The translations under genes and the position numbers were made by a program. A stretch of 26,824 nucleotides of DNA from a virus, in IMG/VR virus record IMGVR_UViG_3300046694_000378, positions 1 to 26,824 of that record; one strand, given 5' to 3'. Under the pieces are notes generated by a model. That model was not told where the DNA came from. It searched no databases and saw nothing but the letters and a program-made list of their open reading frames with translations. Shown piece after piece: positions 9,915 to 24,661 of this stretch (the stretch's first letter is position 1; every line of letters starts with the position of its first letter).

Positions 9915-10401
9915 TGGAGTCGAATTCAGCATTGCCGGCTTGGACTCGCTCCTTGGGAAGCTTGATGCCGTCACATACGACCTGAAGCGGAAGGGCGGGC
10001 GGTCAGCGTTACGCCGCGCTGCTCAGTTGGTTGCGGAAAAAGCCAAGGAGGGCGCCCGGGCCCTGGATGATGCCGAAACAGGACGCTCCATAGCCAGCAA
10101 CATTGGCTTGCGCTGGAACGGTCGACTATTCAAGAGAACCGGCGATTTGGGATTTCGAGTCGGGGTGATGAAAGGTGCGGTGCTGGCCAGAACAGGTGAA
10201 CAGCCGGACCTTGCCGCCGGCGGTGCGACGCCTCACTGGCGTCTCTTGGAGTTCGGCACGGCGAATATGGAAGCCCAGCCCTTCATGCGTAAAGCCCTTG
10301 CTGACAACATCAGTGAAGCGACCAACACGTTCGTTACCGAATACGAGAAAGCCATTGACCGTGCGATCAAGCGTGCGGCCAAGGCTACCGGGAGTAACTA
10401 A
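9904..10401 (+). CDS. HK97 gp10-like neck/tail completion protein
   Basis: A 165-residue protein of the HK97 gp10 family. It has the pattern GLDSLLGKLDAV, a basic helix (KRKGGRSALRRAAQLVAEKAKE), and the family's late motif HWRLLEFGTANMEAQPFMRKAL. It acts at the head-tail junction during assembly. The tandem ATGs at 9904 and 9907 are both possible starts. AAGGGG at 9894-9899 fits either, with slightly better spacing for 9907. Translation is coupled on both sides by overlapping stops and starts. Confidence 0.88.
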   Translation: MMANGVEFSIAGLDSLLGKLDAVTYDLKRKGGRSALRRAAQLVAEKAKEGARALDDAETGRSIASNIGLRWNGRLFKRTGDLGFRVGVMKGAVLARTGEQPDLAAGGATPHWRLLEFGTANMEAQPFMRKALADNISEATNTFVTEYEKAIDRAIKRAAKATGSN

Positions 10402-10806: not shown

Positions 10807-10829
10807 ATGTCCGACATTTGGAGAACGCC

Positions 10830-11345
10830 ATGTCGATCCTTACTCAAGGAACTCAAATTTTTGCTCTGGTGCCGCCTCTAACCGGTACCGGCGCGTTTAC
10901 CGTAATGGAGGTTGAGTGCGCGACTGCGTTCAACCCGGGCGGAAACCCTGCGGATCCGATTGAAGATACCTGTCTGAGCTCTGCCGAACGGACCTACAAA
11001 AAAGGTCTGCGCACTCCAGGTCAGGCATCGCTCACGGTCAACGCTGATCCTGCAAACCCCAGTCATATCCGGCTTCATCAACTCTCAGAAGCTGATGGCG
11101 AAACCACGATCAAGTGGGCAGTTGGTTGGTCGGACGGCCCTAAAAACGCTGCCGGGGAACCGACTGCTTTGCCCACGCTAAACACCGAGGGTGATGACTT
11201 CGAACTGCCGGCCACGCGTACCTGGTACATCTTCGAGGGATACGTCTCTGATTTCCCGTTCGACTTTGCAGCAAATGCTGTGGTGAGCACCGCCGCGTCC
11301 ATTCAACGCTCCGGCGGTTCCGCCTGGATTCGCAAAACCCCATAA
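10830..11345 (+). CDS. Major tail tube protein
   Basis: A 171-residue protein starting at ATG 10830, 6 bp after GGAG; an upstream TTG reading is rejected. It begins [15 protein letters not shown] and contains [25 protein letters not shown] and a [21 protein letters not shown] segment, both typical of lambda V-like tube subunits of Pseudomonas siphophages. Hexameric rings stack around the tape measure protein to form the flexible tail tube. Placement after the terminator DUF3168 gene and before the G/GT chaperones is standard. Confidence 0.87.
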
Positions 11346-11354
11346 GGTCTGATC

Positions 11355-11780
11355 ATGAAGCTGAGCATCAACACTTTAAAAGAAGTGGGCGCCTTCACCG
11401 GCGCTCCGGTAGAAAAGCAAATCACCTGGAAGCAGGGTGATGCCGAGCTCACTGCTACCGTGTTCGTCCGCCCGCTTGGATACTTGTCGGCGGTCAGCGA
11501 TGTGCTAGCGGCCGGCGGCAAGCGTGATGGTATCGCCGGGCGCATTGCTGCGTGCATTTGTGATGAGAGCGGCGCGCCGGTGTTCGCCGTCGATGACATT
11601 ACTGGAGCCGCTGATCCGGAGCGGGGCGCCTTGGATGGAAACTTGACCGTGGCGCTTCTGTCAGTGATATCCGAGGTTACCGGCATGGGAAAGATGATGA
11701 GCTCAGCGACCTCGACGAGCTCTGGCACGAAATCGCGATCACGATCGGCTGCTCCATCGCGGAAGCGCAAGCCCGCCTGA
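11355..11780 (+). CDS. Tail assembly chaperone G-like (unshifted product)
   Basis: A 141-residue product made when ribosomes stay in frame. It begins MKLSINTLKEVGAFTGAPVE and contains a beta-rich domain (ITWKQGDAELTATVFVRPLG). The last 28 residues after the slippery site are serine/arginine-rich and look like an unselected tail, as expected because that stretch also codes for the overlapping -1 frame. G-type chaperones coat the tape measure protein during tail assembly and are absent from the finished virion. AAGG lies 7 bp before the ATG. Confidence 0.85.
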   Translation: MKLSINTLKEVGAFTGAPVEKQITWKQGDAELTATVFVRPLGYLSAVSDVLAAGGKRDGIAGRIAACICDESGAPVFAVDDITGAADPERGALDGNLTVALLSVISEVTGMGKMMSSATSTSSGTKSRSRSAAPSRKRKPA

Positions 11781-11989
11781 GTTATCCGGAGTTTCGCCAG
11801 TGGCAGAAGTACCGAGCTAAGCGTGGATCGCTCAACTGGGGGATGCGCATAGAGCGCGGTGCCGCAATGCTCGCGACGCTCTATGCCAACTCGAGAAGCC
11901 AGAACGGCGGCTTCAAAATTTACGATTTTATGCCGCATGATTCTGAGCAGCCACTGACGCTCGAGCAGGCAATGGAGTCGTGGACCTAA
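11355..11989 (+). CDS. Tail assembly chaperone GT fusion by -1 frameshift
   Basis: The frameshift product runs 11355-11693 in frame, then restarts at 11693 in the -1 frame to the TAA at 11987-11989. It has 113 + 98 = 211 residues. The T part has no good start of its own and reads ELWHEIAITIGCSIAEAQA, then SYPEFRQWQKYRAKRG, similar to lambda T-like domains (EF-x-x-W motif). In lambda, GT binds the tape measure and recruits tube protein, with about 4% of ribosomes shifting. The arrangement between tail tube and tape measure genes matches. Confidence 0.85.
11687..11722 (+). promoter_or_regulatory. Programmed -1 frameshift signal (GGGAAAG plus stem)
   Basis: The heptamer GGGAAAG at 11687-11693 is read G GGA AAG in the upstream frame, the same slippery sequence and phase as lambda G/GT. 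Five bases downstream, GAGCTC (11699-11704) can pair with GAGCTC (11717-11722) to form a possible stimulatory stem-loop. Confidence 0.85.
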
Positions 11990-12058: not shown

Positions 12059-14545
12059 ATGGCTTCCCGATCGCTTGGTACGTTAACGCTGGACCTGATC
12101 GCCAAGATCGGAGGGTTTACAGGTCCGCTGGATAAAGCCAGTCGTGAATCTCAAAAGCGTATGGCCGAGATCCAGAAATCCGCGGAGAAAATCGGGATTG
12201 GCATAAGCGCGGGCGTCGCGGCTGGCGTTGCAGCTCTGGCAGCACTGACGGTATCGTCAGTCAAAGCTGGGTCCGAGATTACTCGGTTTGCACAGGTGTC
12301 CGGTGCGAGCAGCACCGAGTTCCAGAAGTATGCTGCCGGTGCAAAAGCCGTGGGGGTTGAGCAGGACAAGCTGGCGGATATATTCAAGGATGTGAACGAC
12401 AAAGTCGGCGATTTCTTGCTCAACGGCGGCGGCGAGCTGCAGGATTTCTTCAAAACAATCGCGCCTAAAGTTGGTGTGACTGCCGAGCAGTTCCGGAATC
12501 TCTCGGGTCCTCAGGCATTGCAGCTGTTCACGTCCAGCCTGCAGAAGGCGGGACTCAGCCAGGCAGAAATGACGCAGCAAATGGAGTCGCTGGCGAACGA
12601 TGCAACATTGCTCCTGCCTCTACTGCGGGACAACGGGGCAGCGTTCAAGGTGCTAGGCGATTCAGCGCAGCAAGCTGGCGCGATCATGGACGAGAAAACC
12701 ATCAAGGCTACTCAGGGCTTGGCCGCCGCCGGGTGGCTCGCGGAGCAATCCCTGGCCGGTATCAAAAATCAAGTTGCTGCATCGCTAATGCCGACGCTGA
12801 GCGACTATGCGGACATTCTTTTTGGTTTGAGCCAGGACACCGCCTCGGTTTCCCTGCTTTCCGATGGCCTTAACAGCGTTCTCAAGTTTACTGCGAAAAC
12901 TGCGGTCGGCATTGCGTACACCTTTGAGCTGCTAGGTAAATCCATTGCTGGCGTTGCTGCGATCGTAGTAAGCGCTTTTGATGGGGTGGATTTTTCCAGT
13001 CCGATCGATGCAATCAAAAAAATTAGCGAAAACTCTTCCCGTACGGCGTCAATCGTTGGCGATGATCTGGATGAGTTAGACAAAAAATACAACAACCTTT
13101 GGGGGCGAATCGACCAGGCGGGTTCGAGCGGACAGGCAAGTGGGCATCTGAAAGAAATTGCTGATGCGTTGAATGGAGTTGGAGCGGCGGCCCGGCCGGG
13201 CACTTTTAAAGCGCTGACCAAGGATCAACAAGATGCGGCCAAGGCGGCTGAGGCGGCTGCGAAGAAATTGCAGGGCGTCTTCGATACCACTGAAGAGGGG
13301 TACGAGCGTCAAATCGAGTTGATCAACACGTCGAACGATGCCCGGAAAAATGCTACCGAGATCGCCAAGCTTCAGTTTGAGGTCGAGTCCGGCAAGCTGG
13401 TTGGTATCAATGCTCAGCAGCAGAAGCGCCTTGAGGGTTTGGCTGCTGAGCTGGACGGCTTAAACAAGCTGAAGCAGGCCAATGAAGACGCCGTAAAACT
13501 GGCTAGCTTTGGGGATACGCTCAAAGACAGCAATCAAACGATCAAGCACGGGTTTGAGGTTGAACTGGCTGGTGCTGGTTCAGGTGACAAACTCAAAGAG
13601 CGCCTACAGGCCGATTTAGAGATTCAGCAGGACTACAACAAGCAGGCTGCCGACCTGCAGAAACAGCTCAATGGGGGGGACATTACCCAGGAGCTGTACG
13701 ACAAAGAAACGGAAATGCTCAGTGAATCACTCGCCGAGCGCATGGTGATCCAGCAGGACTTTTACAACCAGCAGGACGCCGCGCAGCAAAACTGGCTCGA
13801 CGGCGTCAGCTCGGCCTGGGAGAACTACAAGGATACGGCTACCGACTACCAGCAGCAGGCTGCCGATTTTACTTCGAGCGTGCTGGAGGAAAGCACTAGC
13901 GCAGTTTCAGAAAATATCAGTGCAATGCTCACCGAGCACAAGAGCTTTGGCGATTCGGTGATGGATATTGCTTCTTCCATGGCCAATTCGCTGATTGATG
14001 CCTTGGCCAGGATGGCCGCGCAGTGGCTGGTGTATCAAGGCGTACAACTTGCGATGGGCGCCACGGGTACCACTGCTGCAGTTGCAGAGGCTGCTATCTC
14101 AGGTCCTGCTATCGCGGCGGCATACGCGCCGGCTGCGGCGATGGCTTCCCTGGCATCTTTCGGTGCCAACTCAGTTCCGGCAATCGCAGCCATCACGACA
14201 ACAAATGCCACCGCCTCATCGATGGCTCTGCTGGGCATGGCCCACGACGGTATCGACTCTGTACCGGAAACGGGCACCTGGCTCCTGCAGAAAGGTGAGC
14301 GCGTAACCACCGCTGAAACCAGCGCAAAACTTGATCGGACACTCAGTCAGATCAATGGCAGCAGCATGTCGAGCAAAACGGAAGTAAACCTTCACGAAGA
14401 TGCCAGCCGCGCCGGGCAGGTGCAAACCAGCACCGGCCCAGACGGCAAGCAGATTATGGAGGTGTTCGTCTCAAACATCCGTTCGCAGAGCGCCGCAGCA
14501 AAGGCCTTTGAACAAACCTATGGACTGAAGCGAGTGGGACGATGA
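12059..14545 (+). CDS. Tail tape measure protein
   Basis: An 828-residue protein whose length sets tail length. It begins MASRSLGTLTLDLIAKIGGF and continues with a hydrophobic helix (about 46-70) and long alpha-helical coiled-coil stretches, especially residues 395-600. The lambda-type C-terminal domain is recognisable near 580-690 (WENYKDTATDYQQQ, SFGDSVMDIASSMANSLID, MAAQWLVYQG). A glycine/alanine-rich hydrophobic segment follows, and the end carries GTWLLQKGERVTTAETS. During infection such regions help DNA cross the inner membrane. TGGAG lies 5 bp before the ATG. The stop overlaps the next start. Confidence 0.95.
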   Translation: MASRSLGTLTLDLIAKIGGFTGPLDKASRESQKRMAEIQKSAEKIGIGISAGVAAGVAALAALTVSSVKAGSEITRFAQVSGASSTEFQKYAAGAKAVGVEQDKLADIFKDVNDKVGDFLLNGGGELQDFFKTIAPKVGVTAEQFRNLSGPQALQLFTSSLQKAGLSQAEMTQQMESLANDATLLLPLLRDNGAAFKVLGDSAQQAGAIMDEKTIKATQGLAAAGWLAEQSLAGIKNQVAASLMPTLSDYADILFGLSQDTASVSLLSDGLNSVLKFTAKTAVGIAYTFELLGKSIAGVAAIVVSAFDGVDFSSPIDAIKKISENSSRTASIVGDDLDELDKKYNNLWGRIDQAGSSGQASGHLKEIADALNGVGAAARPGTFKALTKDQQDAAKAAEAAAKKLQGVFDTTEEGYERQIELINTSNDARKNATEIAKLQFEVESGKLVGINAQQQKRLEGLAAELDGLNKLKQANEDAVKLASFGDTLKDSNQTIKHGFEVELAGAGSGDKLKERLQADLEIQQDYNKQAADLQKQLNGGDITQELYDKETEMLSESLAERMVIQQDFYNQQDAAQQNWLDGVSSAWENYKDTATDYQQQAADFTSSVLEESTSAVSENISAMLTEHKSFGDSVMDIASSMANSLIDALARMAAQWLVYQGVQLAMGATGTTAAVAEAAISGPAIAAAYAPAAAMASLASFGANSVPAIAAITTTNATASSMALLGMAHDGIDSVPETGTWLLQKGERVTTAETSAKLDRTLSQINGSSMSSKTEVNLHEDASRAGQVQTSTGPDGKQIMEVFVSNIRSQSAAAKAFEQTYGLKRVGR

Positions 14546-19072: not shown

Positions 19073-20848
19073 ATGAGCGGCGCGACTGATCTTGCCCGAC
19101 TGACGGCAACGATCGATACAGCCAACGAACTGTTGCTGAGCGATCAAATCAAGATGATGGACGTTGGTGACGGCGTGATGCGCCCGACCAACGCTAAGGC
19201 AGTAGCTGATTTAGCGGCACAGATGACCGGCGCAATGATTTACCTGACCACTGCGTCTGGCTTGGCAGGCACGGTGAGTGGTTCGTACTTCACGGTTCCA
19301 GCCTCCACCAGTGGCGAATACCTTATTCTTTATCGAAACGAGGGTGGTGTCGCCCTTGAGATCAAGCGTTACCCTTCATCGGAGGCACTCAAGGCTGTCA
19401 GCGATTTGGTGACCACCACGAATTACAGCACCCCAGAAGTCGAGGTGATGGTTATAAGCGACCAAGAAGGAGGGAAGCTGAGCACGTTGACTTCTAAGCG
19501 GCTAGAAACGCCGGGATTTGATGTCATTGCCGAGCCTGGAGACAAAACCATCATTGGCGACAGTGAGGGCGCGGCAAGCGTATTCGTTGATGCAGAGCGG
19601 GCCATACTCGGAGCTCTGGAAGTGCAACCGACTTCAATGCCAGGTTTTTACATCACTGACGAAGATGGCGGTGTAATTCAGGACTTCAATCAAAATTTTC
19701 TAGTCGACTCCGCAGAAGGCGCAGTTTCTCCATTCGACGGCGGCCTCCTGTTCATGCCAGTTATCGCCACTGCGGAGGGGGGGGACGTGGCGGTGTACGC
19801 CCAGGGCATGATCCCACATCGCGAAAACTCTGATAGCGTGATCGCATCCTTGGCCAGTCAGGATACGAGTTACAGCGTTACTGCCCCGGCTATGCCGGTC
19901 AGCTATACAAAGTGCGGAGCATCTGCCGTTCTGAATTTACGCCTGAAGTCTCAGCCCGATGTTCGGCATACGATGGCGCTGACACTTAAAAATGTGTCAG
20001 TGCAGTCACCGGCGGTGCCGATCAACATTCTCTGGATTGGCGATAGCATTACTAATTTTGCAGGACCATATCTCCTTGATACCTATCTCAGAGAGTTAGG
20101 GTTTGTGCCTAATTGGATGGGTACTCTGAAAAGTTCGGTATCGTCCAGCGAAACAAATACCGCAGGCCCGTTGGCCGAAGGGCGCCCGGGATGGGAGAGC
20201 GGTGATTACACCTACGCCGTTACTGGGCGCGCGCAAATGATTGCGGTAGGAGATGAAGCAAGCTACTTGACAATGGAGAAGTCGGATCAGTTCGCATTCA
20301 ACCCCTTTGTCCGTATCGCTAACGGCTCTGACTCCCCGGCAGTTGTTAGAAATGGTCGCGTCTTCGATCCGGCGTTTTATCAATCTCGATTTGGTTTTGA
20401 CACGCCAGACCTAGTCATTAATACCGTCGGCACGAACGATGTTCGTGATCTTGCTTCTTCGGCAATCTACGATGCTATTTATTCTAACGACACTCTCATG
20501 CACAGCCAGATACTGGCGGCCTGGCCTTCCGCCAAGGTCATCCGTAGCGTACCCGGTACCTCTTACAACTCTACGCGAAACGCTCTTTGGGCTAGTCATT
20601 ACGCCCCCATGATCCGAGCCTTGAAGGCAGCTGCCGTTACTGTTGGTTCGAAAGTTATCGTGCCGCCTCTTTGGGCTATGACTAACCCTGAAGTCGGTTA
20701 TGCAATTGGATTGGCAGTTCCAACGGGTAACGACGGTTTCAAAGTTTCTGATTGGAGCGATAACACCCATCCATCTGGCGCATCCCGTCAGGCGCTCTTC
20801 AAGGCGTTAGCACCATTCGTTGCCGCCGCCAAAATTAACTTAATGTAA
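19073..20848 (+). CDS. Tail fibre/spike with SGNH (GDSL-like) hydrolase domain
   Basis: A 591-residue protein. The N-terminal third is an attachment region (LTATIDTANELLLSDQIKMM) with beta-rich repeats. From about residue 318 it carries an SGNH-hydrolase domain: block I ILWIGDS with nucleophile S325, block II GRPGW (370-374), block III GTND (453-456, N455), and block V D563-x-x-H566-P. Together these give a full Ser/Asp/His set, so it is probably active. In phage G7C a tail spike with this fold removes acetyl groups from O-antigen; a polysaccharide esterase role at the cell surface is therefore likely here. CTGGAG precedes the ATG. An 8-G run lies at 19777-19784. Confidence 0.85.
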   Translation: MSGATDLARLTATIDTANELLLSDQIKMMDVGDGVMRPTNAKAVADLAAQMTGAMIYLTTASGLAGTVSGSYFTVPASTSGEYLILYRNEGGVALEIKRYPSSEALKAVSDLVTTTNYSTPEVEVMVISDQEGGKLSTLTSKRLETPGFDVIAEPGDKTIIGDSEGAASVFVDAERAILGALEVQPTSMPGFYITDEDGGVIQDFNQNFLVDSAEGAVSPFDGGLLFMPVIATAEGGDVAVYAQGMIPHRENSDSVIASLASQDTSYSVTAPAMPVSYTKCGASAVLNLRLKSQPDVRHTMALTLKNVSVQSPAVPINILWIGDSITNFAGPYLLDTYLRELGFVPNWMGTLKSSVSSSETNTAGPLAEGRPGWESGDYTYAVTGRAQMIAVGDEASYLTMEKSDQFAFNPFVRIANGSDSPAVVRNGRVFDPAFYQSRFGFDTPDLVINTVGTNDVRDLASSAIYDAIYSNDTLMHSQILAAWPSAKVIRSVPGTSYNSTRNALWASHYAPMIRALKAAAVTVGSKVIVPPLWAMTNPEVGYAIGLAVPTGNDGFKVSDWSDNTHPSGASRQALFKALAPFVAAAKINLM

Positions 20849-21871: not shown

Positions 21872-22618
21872 TTATTCTTTGGTAATAGTTAGAGTGTTGT
21901 TTTGGAGCTTCAGCGAAACATTTGCGCGCTTTTGTGCTCCTGAGTCTATTTTTTTGCGAAGTTGAAGTATTGCGTTTTCAACATCGTCAAAACAAAGGTC
22001 GCTCAACTCGTTTACGTCGTACTCCCACCATTTTAGCTCTAATAGTTGAGCGATAATTTCTTGGTCGAAACGGTATTTTATTACTTTTGCAGGCACGCCA
22101 CCTACTATTGCGTAGGCGGGAACGTCCTTATTTACGACCGCTCCAGCAGCAACTACTGCGCCGTCACCGATTGTGACGCCGCGTAAAATTACAGCGTTTG
22201 CACCTATCCATACATCGTTTCCGATAACCGGCATTCGCTTAGAAATAGATAGGGGGAGTCTGAGTTCTCCTGTGAAGTCCTTAGCACCATCCCAATTGTT
22301 AAAAGATGATTTTCCGTACTGAAATGGATGACTGCTCATCCAGGTAACTGGATGTTCTCCATCACCTATGGAGACATTGGGGGCAATACTGCAGTAGGCG
22401 CCCACCTTCCCGCATAATCTTCCACTCCGCATGAATGTATACGCACCAATCTCTACGTGCCCGCGAATCTCGGTTCTAAACAAATGTATGGGAGGGACGC
22501 ATGTAACTGAAAGACTACCGGGCACCCCGGTGTGCTCAAGTGACATTCCGTGGTTGGCGATAAATTGAGATCGCTCGACTGGTGTCATTTCTGTAAGTGA
22601 ATGGCTTTCAGTAGGCAT
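21872..22618 (-). CDS. CatB-like hexapeptide O-acetyltransferase (moron)
   Basis: A 248-residue left-handed beta-helix acetyltransferase, starting at ATG 22618. Hexapeptide-type turns appear in [29 protein letters not shown] and later [20 protein letters not shown] and [13 protein letters not shown]89 ([10 protein letters not shown]) is the likely catalytic histidine, with the family's SSHPF at 95-99 and [12 protein letters not shown] after the helix. It transfers acetyl from acetyl-CoA to a hydroxyl. Relatives modify either sugars of surface polysaccharide or antibiotics (CatB, Vat). Its place next to a deacetylase-like fibre gene favours polysaccharide. It runs against the late genes and is more AT-rich, as expected for a moron. 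The start codon has only a weak ribosome binding site. Confidence 0.82.
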
Positions 22619-22976
22619 CAAATAATCCGTGCTGAACTGTGATGTGTATTTTTATGGTGATGTGCTCGCTCAAATGGCGACCAGACCATGCAAGGCAAAA
22701 CGTATCTTATCGAAAACCCTTCCGTTTTTCCCAAAAATTGATCTGAGCCGCTAGAGGCTGATACCCGTATCGGCTGGCGGTGCTCGCAACTTTAATTGAG
22801 ATTTAACAATGAAATATTCGGGCCTGCGGCAGACCCTTCGCCCCTTGTCGCTGTGCCATTCCTCTCTAATTGCCTCCTTTATAGTCATAGCACTGGCTGG
22901 TCCTCAGCAGCCGGTAACTCAGTTGATGACAGCAGTTTCAGCCCGCCTAAGCGGCTTTTTCGCCAGGAGAAAAGTG
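22619..22976. other. Intergenic/regulatory region between acetyltransferase and endolysin
   Basis: A divergent gap of 358 bp. Its left part is AT-rich and should hold the promoter of the minus-strand acetyltransferase, though no clear -35/-10 pair is seen. GCTGATAC and GTATCGGC near 22757-22774 form an imperfect inverted repeat. From 22809 an in-frame extension of the endolysin is open (56 residues, partly hydrophobic). Its start has poor ribosome binding support. Confidence 0.5.
22940..22960 (+). terminator. Weak intrinsic terminator before the endolysin start
   Basis: AGCC-GC (22940-22946, one bulged C) pairs with GC-GGCT (22951-22956), loop CTAA, followed by five T. The endolysin ribosome binding site AGGAGA follows within 5 nt. 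It has the same hairpin-then-SD arrangement as other module joints in this genome. Confidence 0.45.
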
Positions 22977-23744: not shown

Positions 23745-23767
23745 CTCCGTTTAATTGGAGCAATGTG

Positions 23768-24661
23768 ATGACAATAGGATTTGTTTTTGGCGCCGGCGCT
23801 AGTTACGGTAGCCTAGATTGCAAGCCAAGCACTCCACCACTGGGGAATGACCTTTTCAAGGCCATGAGGGATGGTGGTTTTTTAAGTTTTGTTAACGAAG
23901 AATGTGCGGAAAAGTTTTCTGACTTTGAAGTTGGGATGGATTTTTTCTATAAAAATCACAGTGGCTTCGTTGTTAGGTTTCTTCAAGAGATGTCGTTGTT
24001 TTTTTTGAAATATGATCTGGGTGACGAGAATCTATATTTTAAAATAGCTGAGCAACTGGCTCGGAGCAAAAAACGAGCGGTGTTTATGACGACTAATTAC
24101 GACTTGTTGCTTGAGAAGAGCTTTGAGCGTGCGGGGCTTGATTACTCTTACTCGTTTGGCGATTCACCTGATCAGGTTTCGCTTCTTAAAATTCATGGCT
24201 CCTGCAATTTTATTCCGCAGTGTACATTCACAGGCATAGCTTTTCAGTTTTCTCCAGATTGGCGTGGTCCAGCAATAAGATCTAATTTTAGGGCGGAGTT
24301 GGATCTTCGTAAGGTTATGAAATTTTGCATGAGTAGTTCTATCGCCCCGGCAATCGCAATGTACTCACCAGATAAAACTAGATTATTTGATGGCGTGTTT
24401 GTTGAGAGTCAATACAGTTCATGGGTTGAATCCCTATCTCATTGCGAGAGTATTTTTGTTGTTGGATTGCGCGTGCATTTAGTTGATAGGCATATATGGG
24501 AGCTTCTTGCAGTTACTACCGCGAAAATTTACTACGTTGGCTCGCAAAAAGAAGTATTTGAAAAATGGGCAAGTGAAAACGGACGAAGCGGTGATGTGGC
24601 AATATCAGGAAGATTTGAAGGGGCGATTGAAGAGATTTTTAACGCTATACATGGGAAATAA
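23768..24661 (+). CDS. SIR2-domain protein, likely NADase-type defence moron
   Basis: A 297-residue protein with the SIR2/Rossmann pattern. GFVFGAGAS (residues 4-12) is the NAD-binding loop, N110 in MTTNYD matches the conserved catalytic asparagine region, and H143-G in LLKIHGSCNF is the catalytic histidine. Later strands read SIFVVGLRV and KIYYVGS. Bacterial SIR2 proteins in prophages (for example ThsA and DSR types) often destroy NAD+ on phage infection, killing the infected cell. This one lacks an obvious extra sensor or effector domain. TTGGAG precedes the ATG; GTG 23765 is an alternative start. The gene is clearly more AT-rich than the phage core and sits between the endolysin and attR, a typical accessory slot. 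Confidence 0.8.
   Translation: MTIGFVFGAGASYGSLDCKPSTPPLGNDLFKAMRDGGFLSFVNEECAEKFSDFEVGMDFFYKNHSGFVVRFLQEMSLFFLKYDLGDENLYFKIAEQLARSKKRAVFMTTNYDLLLEKSFERAGLDYSYSFGDSPDQVSLLKIHGSCNFIPQCTFTGIAFQFSPDWRGPAIRSNFRAELDLRKVMKFCMSSSIAPAIAMYSPDKTRLFDGVFVESQYSSWVESLSHCESIFVVGLRVHLVDRHIWELLAVTTAKIYYVGSQKEVFEKWASENGRSGDVAISGRFEGAIEEIFNAIHGK

Follow-up and report, generated by a model that had tools for sequence, protein, structure and literature searches.

A predicted lambda-type -1 frameshift in the tail assembly chaperone gene of a Pseudomonas-type phage

Between the tail tube and tape measure genes of a 26.8-kb virus record lies a chaperone gene overlapped, in the -1 frame, by a T-like domain that lacks a start codon of its own. 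The question raised by this locus is how the T frame is translated. In lambda, the corresponding G/GT frameshift operates at a 30:1 ratio; it is widely conserved in long-tailed phages, and roles have been assigned to gpG and to the T domain (PMC5009743).

The slip site, its frames and its conservation

The whole record (26,824 nucleotides, hereafter the window) comes from a Pseudomonas-type phage, and the nearest named relatives of the gene block are Pseudomonas D3-like phages. Its gene order is siphophage-like: family matches identify the tail terminator, tail tube, G, T and tape measure genes and the tail genes further downstream, while the upstream head genes were recognised by eye alone, from their translations. 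The chaperone gene is flanked by the tail tube gene (10818-11345, PF16460) and the tape measure gene (12059-14545, PF09718/TIGR01541). A tRNA-Pyl called by ARAGORN at 12584-12664 falls within the tape measure gene and was treated as a false positive; an Rfam search returned no match. The features on which the frameshift reading is built are as follows.

11355-11780, + strand: G-like tail assembly chaperone ORF of 141 aa, the unshifted product (Pfam PF16459 Phage_TAC_13, E 6e-30; PHROG 1749)
11687-11693, + strand: slippery heptamer G_GGA_AAG, in phase and identical in 177 of 209 related loci
11690-11989, + strand: T-like domain of the -1 frame, 99 residues long counted from AAA and C-terminal in GT, which has 211 residues (Pfam PF06223 Phage_tail_T, E 9e-10; PHROG 337, E 2e-23)

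In frame 0 (the frame of 11355) the slip site reads ATG|GGA|AAG, and GAT is the next codon after a -1 slip. The initial annotation had described a lambda-identical GGGAAAG in the correct phase, and the heptamer does match that at lambda 10109-10115 in both sequence and phase (phase 2 in both). The Phage_TAC_13 match covers the first 112 residues of G (E 3e-30). The open stretch of the -1 frame runs from 11615 to 11989. A shifted product would comprise 113 + 98 = 211 residues with the junction G112-K113-D114-D115, the protein and junction originally predicted. In-phase GGGAAAG occurs once among 6119 in-phase positions in the 20 likely genes of the window. When phase is ignored, the plain heptamer occurs three times against 3.6 expected and is not rare; the significance of the site thus lies in its phase, place and conservation and not in the rarity of the plain heptamer.

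Relatives of the T domain were gathered from viral contigs, phage records and genomes, yielding 209 loci with T. GGGAAAG is in phase with a frame-0 ORF standing in the -1 relation in 177 of these, GGGAAAA in 3 and AAAAAAC in 12. Loci without GGGAAAG mostly carry another -1 shifty site (AAAAAAC, GGGAAAA) or A_AAG just before the G stop; in a Pseudomonas subgroup, A_AAG lies near or directly before that stop. Within the D3-like branch and among its relatives, the signal hardly varies. Among 81 representatives, all with GGGAAAR and below 85% identity, the Gly codon of the heptamer is always GGA, compared with 57 of 702 Gly codons (8%) elsewhere in the gene; these representatives were selected for GGGAAA, and the count free of such selection is 180 of 209. 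The preceding codon specifies any of six residues (L, M, A, P, S or V), yet always ends in G. Because GGA is invariant and the codon before it ends in G whatever its residue, these codon patterns indicate that selection at the slip site acts on nucleotides and not on protein.

A subfamily and a single locus depart from the common arrangement. In L184-L204 (genome loci, mostly Pseudomonas), GCAAAG or AAAAAAC replaces GGGAAAG at around 1455-1510, a single codon ahead of the G stop (AAG AAC TGA). This subfamily has a Gly-rich insertion after the Glu-Val motif, and its -1 site is another one, though the gene is the same. In L006 (2100-2760), T is intact, but upstream of the heptamer the G frame has been replaced or disrupted; this locus is probably a rearranged prophage remnant.

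Candidate stimulators around the slip site

Two elements flank the heptamer, the first of which was missed in the initial annotation.

11673-11676, + strand: Shine-Dalgarno (SD)-like GAGG (GAGGT to 11677), 10 nt before the heptamer, a proposed upstream stimulator with a family-wide signal
11699-11722 (arms 11699-11704 and 11717-11722), + strand: GAGCTC/GAGCTC stem with a 12-nt loop and a 5-nt spacer, a possible weak downstream stimulator that folds in the MFE structure

An SD element stimulates -1 frameshifting at a distance of 9-14 nt, and at 10 nt in dnaX (PMC5009743). The GAGG sits at this known stimulatory distance and is probably a stimulator, as judged from its position and its conservation. 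At 10 nt before the heptamer, GAGG is present in 56 of the 81 representatives and AGG in 61. The site is the strongest anti-SD position in the gene (mean -7.7 versus -1.4 kcal/mol in 48 loci, not deduplicated), and none of 100 synonymous shuffles was as strong as the family mean. The window's own site (GAGGT, -7.1) is no stronger than its own synonymous shuffles, so the SD claim for this phage is founded on position and on the family.

For this one step there is an appreciable, if lesser, possibility that GAGG just reflects how a conserved Glu-Val motif is encoded and has no stimulatory effect, in which case frameshifting itself would still occur. Glu-Val-Asn is a conserved chaperone peptide motif that is kept in relatives whose slip sites differ in kind and spacing, and codon choice would also fit both the shuffle result for the window and the preference for Val GTG after Glu, which is not significant (p 0.06). 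However, the ratio of GAG to GAA at the SD codon across the representatives is 56:13, versus 258:173 elsewhere in the gene (p 0.0007; paired z 3.06), and AGG is kept in some lineages in which Glu is replaced by Gln or Lys. Those relatives whose slip sites are of another kind and differently spaced use GAG at close to the background rate (about 15 of 24, hand count; p 0.09 for the difference). A stimulatory role for GAGG has a counterpart in E. coli dnaX, where an SD-like element also lies 10 nt upstream of the shift site (PMC5009743), although dnaX is a different gene with a different heptamer and a strong stem-loop. Lambda lacks an AGG-type element at the 10-nt spacing at which the window has GAGG.

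The downstream stem had been put forward together with the slip site. It is present with the 5-nt spacer claimed for it, and perhaps helps slippage slightly, but it supports frameshifting less strongly than was first supposed. The 81-nt region of the window folds no better than shuffles (z +0.66), and the 40 nt containing its 6-bp stem give z -1.0. Across the representatives, the 40 nt after the site have a mean z of -1.24 against dinucleotide shuffles (controls elsewhere, -0.36 to +0.03); against T-synonymous shuffles the family mean is -0.71, and the effect is smallest where the G tail is short (-0.31). All six stem pairs form in 22 of the 81 representatives and at least five in 41. The palindrome is made by two Glu-Leu pairs. 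In the first, the Leu codon is followed by A, and only CTC or CTT there keeps a stop out of frame 0; the stem is therefore partly a by-product of coding. As a required element the hairpin was rejected: many relatives with short tails have lost it, and this avoidance of stops accounts for part of it.

Expression of the T frame

Programmed -1 frameshifting at G_GGA_AAG is very likely, given the phase, domains, gene order and family-wide nucleotide conservation, which agree with the lambda-type reading first proposed. The full explanation, in which G is the majority product and GT the minority product of a -1 slip helped by a stimulator, with lambda-like roles for both, is held with high confidence. 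Most ribosomes would translate the 141-aa G, and a minority, probably a few percent, would slip back one base on G_GGA_AAG. The tRNA-Gly and tRNA-Lys would re-pair on GGG AAA, and the T domain would then be read to give the 211-residue GT. 16S rRNA probably aids slippage by pairing with the GAGG that lies 10 nt upstream, and the short downstream stem may do so slightly. By analogy with lambda, G would coat the tape measure protein and the few GT molecules would recruit the tail tube subunit. Phase, open frames, domains and conservation were read from the sequence; slippage itself, its level, the stimulator and, through lambda, the assembly roles are deduced.

Slippage on A_AAG in E. coli needs a Lys tRNA with the anticodon TTT. 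In three Pseudomonas genomes that carry related prophages, every Lys tRNA recovered has the anticodon TTT, in a search that a divergent tRNA-Lys(CUU) could escape. G_GGA_AAG is highly shift-prone in E. coli (PMC5009743), and 6-7% frameshifting has been measured for two tail-chaperone genes of an HK97-related cluster (PMC3711429).

It is very improbable that T is translated alone from an internal start, by re-initiation or coupling and without frameshifting. T is annotated as a separate CDS in most relatives in the databases, and GTG/ATG codons stand at +48/+51 in some of them. In the window, however, the T frame offers no ATG, GTG or TTG before +156 (156 nt beyond the slip), and starting there would remove about half of the conserved T domain. 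Conserved T residues begin immediately past the slip. Start codons show no conservation: only one of the 81 representatives has a T-frame start at or before +18, 26 have none within the first 150 nt, and the annotated T of D3 begins at CTG (+45). The annotated T starts in relatives are forced. An independent start, the outcome that the initial annotation had named as contrary to its reading, was rejected because neither the window nor the 81 representatives offer a usable conserved start codon. Least probable is that G and T are the two parts of a broken fusion gene, a pseudogene in which the heptamer stands by chance. This would suit the fact that the plain heptamer is not rare but is refuted by the occurrence of the same -1 relation and heptamer in 177 of 209 loci and by an intact downstream frame conserved to about 40% identity.

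The locus is a real and ordinary member of the known lambda G/GT kind, to which the SD-like element and a dual-coded tail add two constraints that are partly unexpected. The T domain belongs to the same Pfam family as lambda gpT (PF06223) and occupies the same place between tail tube and tape measure. The G proteins differ in family: lambda G is TAC_2 (PF06894), whereas G here is Phage_TAC_13 (PF16459) without a PF06894 match. What lambda and the window have in common is therefore the T domain, together with the slip site and the gene arrangement. Closer at hand is Pseudomonas phage D3 (Detrevirus), whose orf17 and orf18 encode G and T proteins 72% and 54% identical to those of the window, with the same heptamer, GAGG and gene order. 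As the initial annotation had anticipated, standard annotation misses GT: none of 12 annotated relatives joins the two frames. The present reading adds a 211-residue GT protein, which annotators split or drop.

The unshifted G tail

Beyond the slip site, the two frames overlap as follows.

11694-11780, + strand: overlap of the 28-residue unshifted G tail (Ser/Thr/Arg/Lys-rich) in frame 0 with the T domain in frame -1; reduced T synonymous variation in relatives of equal tail length

The tail of lambda G after the slip is short, and D3 G ends about 24 nt past the heptamer, leaving only 6 unshifted residues against 28 in the window. Relatives fall into length classes of 3, 6, 13, 28, 30-32 and about 48 residues. 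The Ser/Arg-rich tail was at first taken as a sign of out-of-frame coding; on the contrary, T synonymous variation falls to about 43% there, and the tail appears to be selected. In the 28-residue class, to which the window belongs, third codon positions of T vary 0.43 times as much inside the overlap as outside it (95%, 0.35-0.48), a value drawn from 35 related sequences, nine of them less than 85% identical, with statistics that ignore kinship. The corresponding ratio in the short-tail class is 0.88. Within the 28-residue class, codons 2-12 show roughly equal variation at all three positions, and over codons 13-27 variation remains reduced (0.34 versus 0.52) at four-fold sites incapable of creating a frame-0 stop. 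Since variation is reduced where there is no risk of a stop, selection on the frame-0 tail would exceed what maintenance of an open frame requires. These patterns are a good indication, but not proof, that the tail is selected as protein and that both frames are constrained.

Tentatively, and with a little less than even confidence, the site may be a compact module that joins an internal SD stimulator at the dnaX distance to a dual-coded overlap with a selected basic Ser/Arg tail, such that G and GT would differ by two functional C-termini and not by whether T is present or absent. The literature searched, which covered few subscription papers, held no description of an SD element or a dual-coded tail in this gene. 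If confirmed, the two would offer a simple test of frameshift-level tuning without strong RNA structure, and of the importance of the C-terminus of unshifted G.

Three other genes of the window lie further downstream. An ORF at 23765-24661, near tail and lysis genes, has a SIR2-like domain (PF13289, E 1e-8) and weak PADLOC SIR2 and AbiH matches, and it is a possible defence gene carried by the phage or prophage. A hexapeptide-repeat transferase encoded on the opposite strand (21872-22621, - strand), downstream of the tail fibre genes, is possibly a surface-modifying cargo gene. The tail-fibre-like protein at 19073-20848 has a weak GDSL/SGNH hydrolase match and is perhaps an esterase acting on the host surface.
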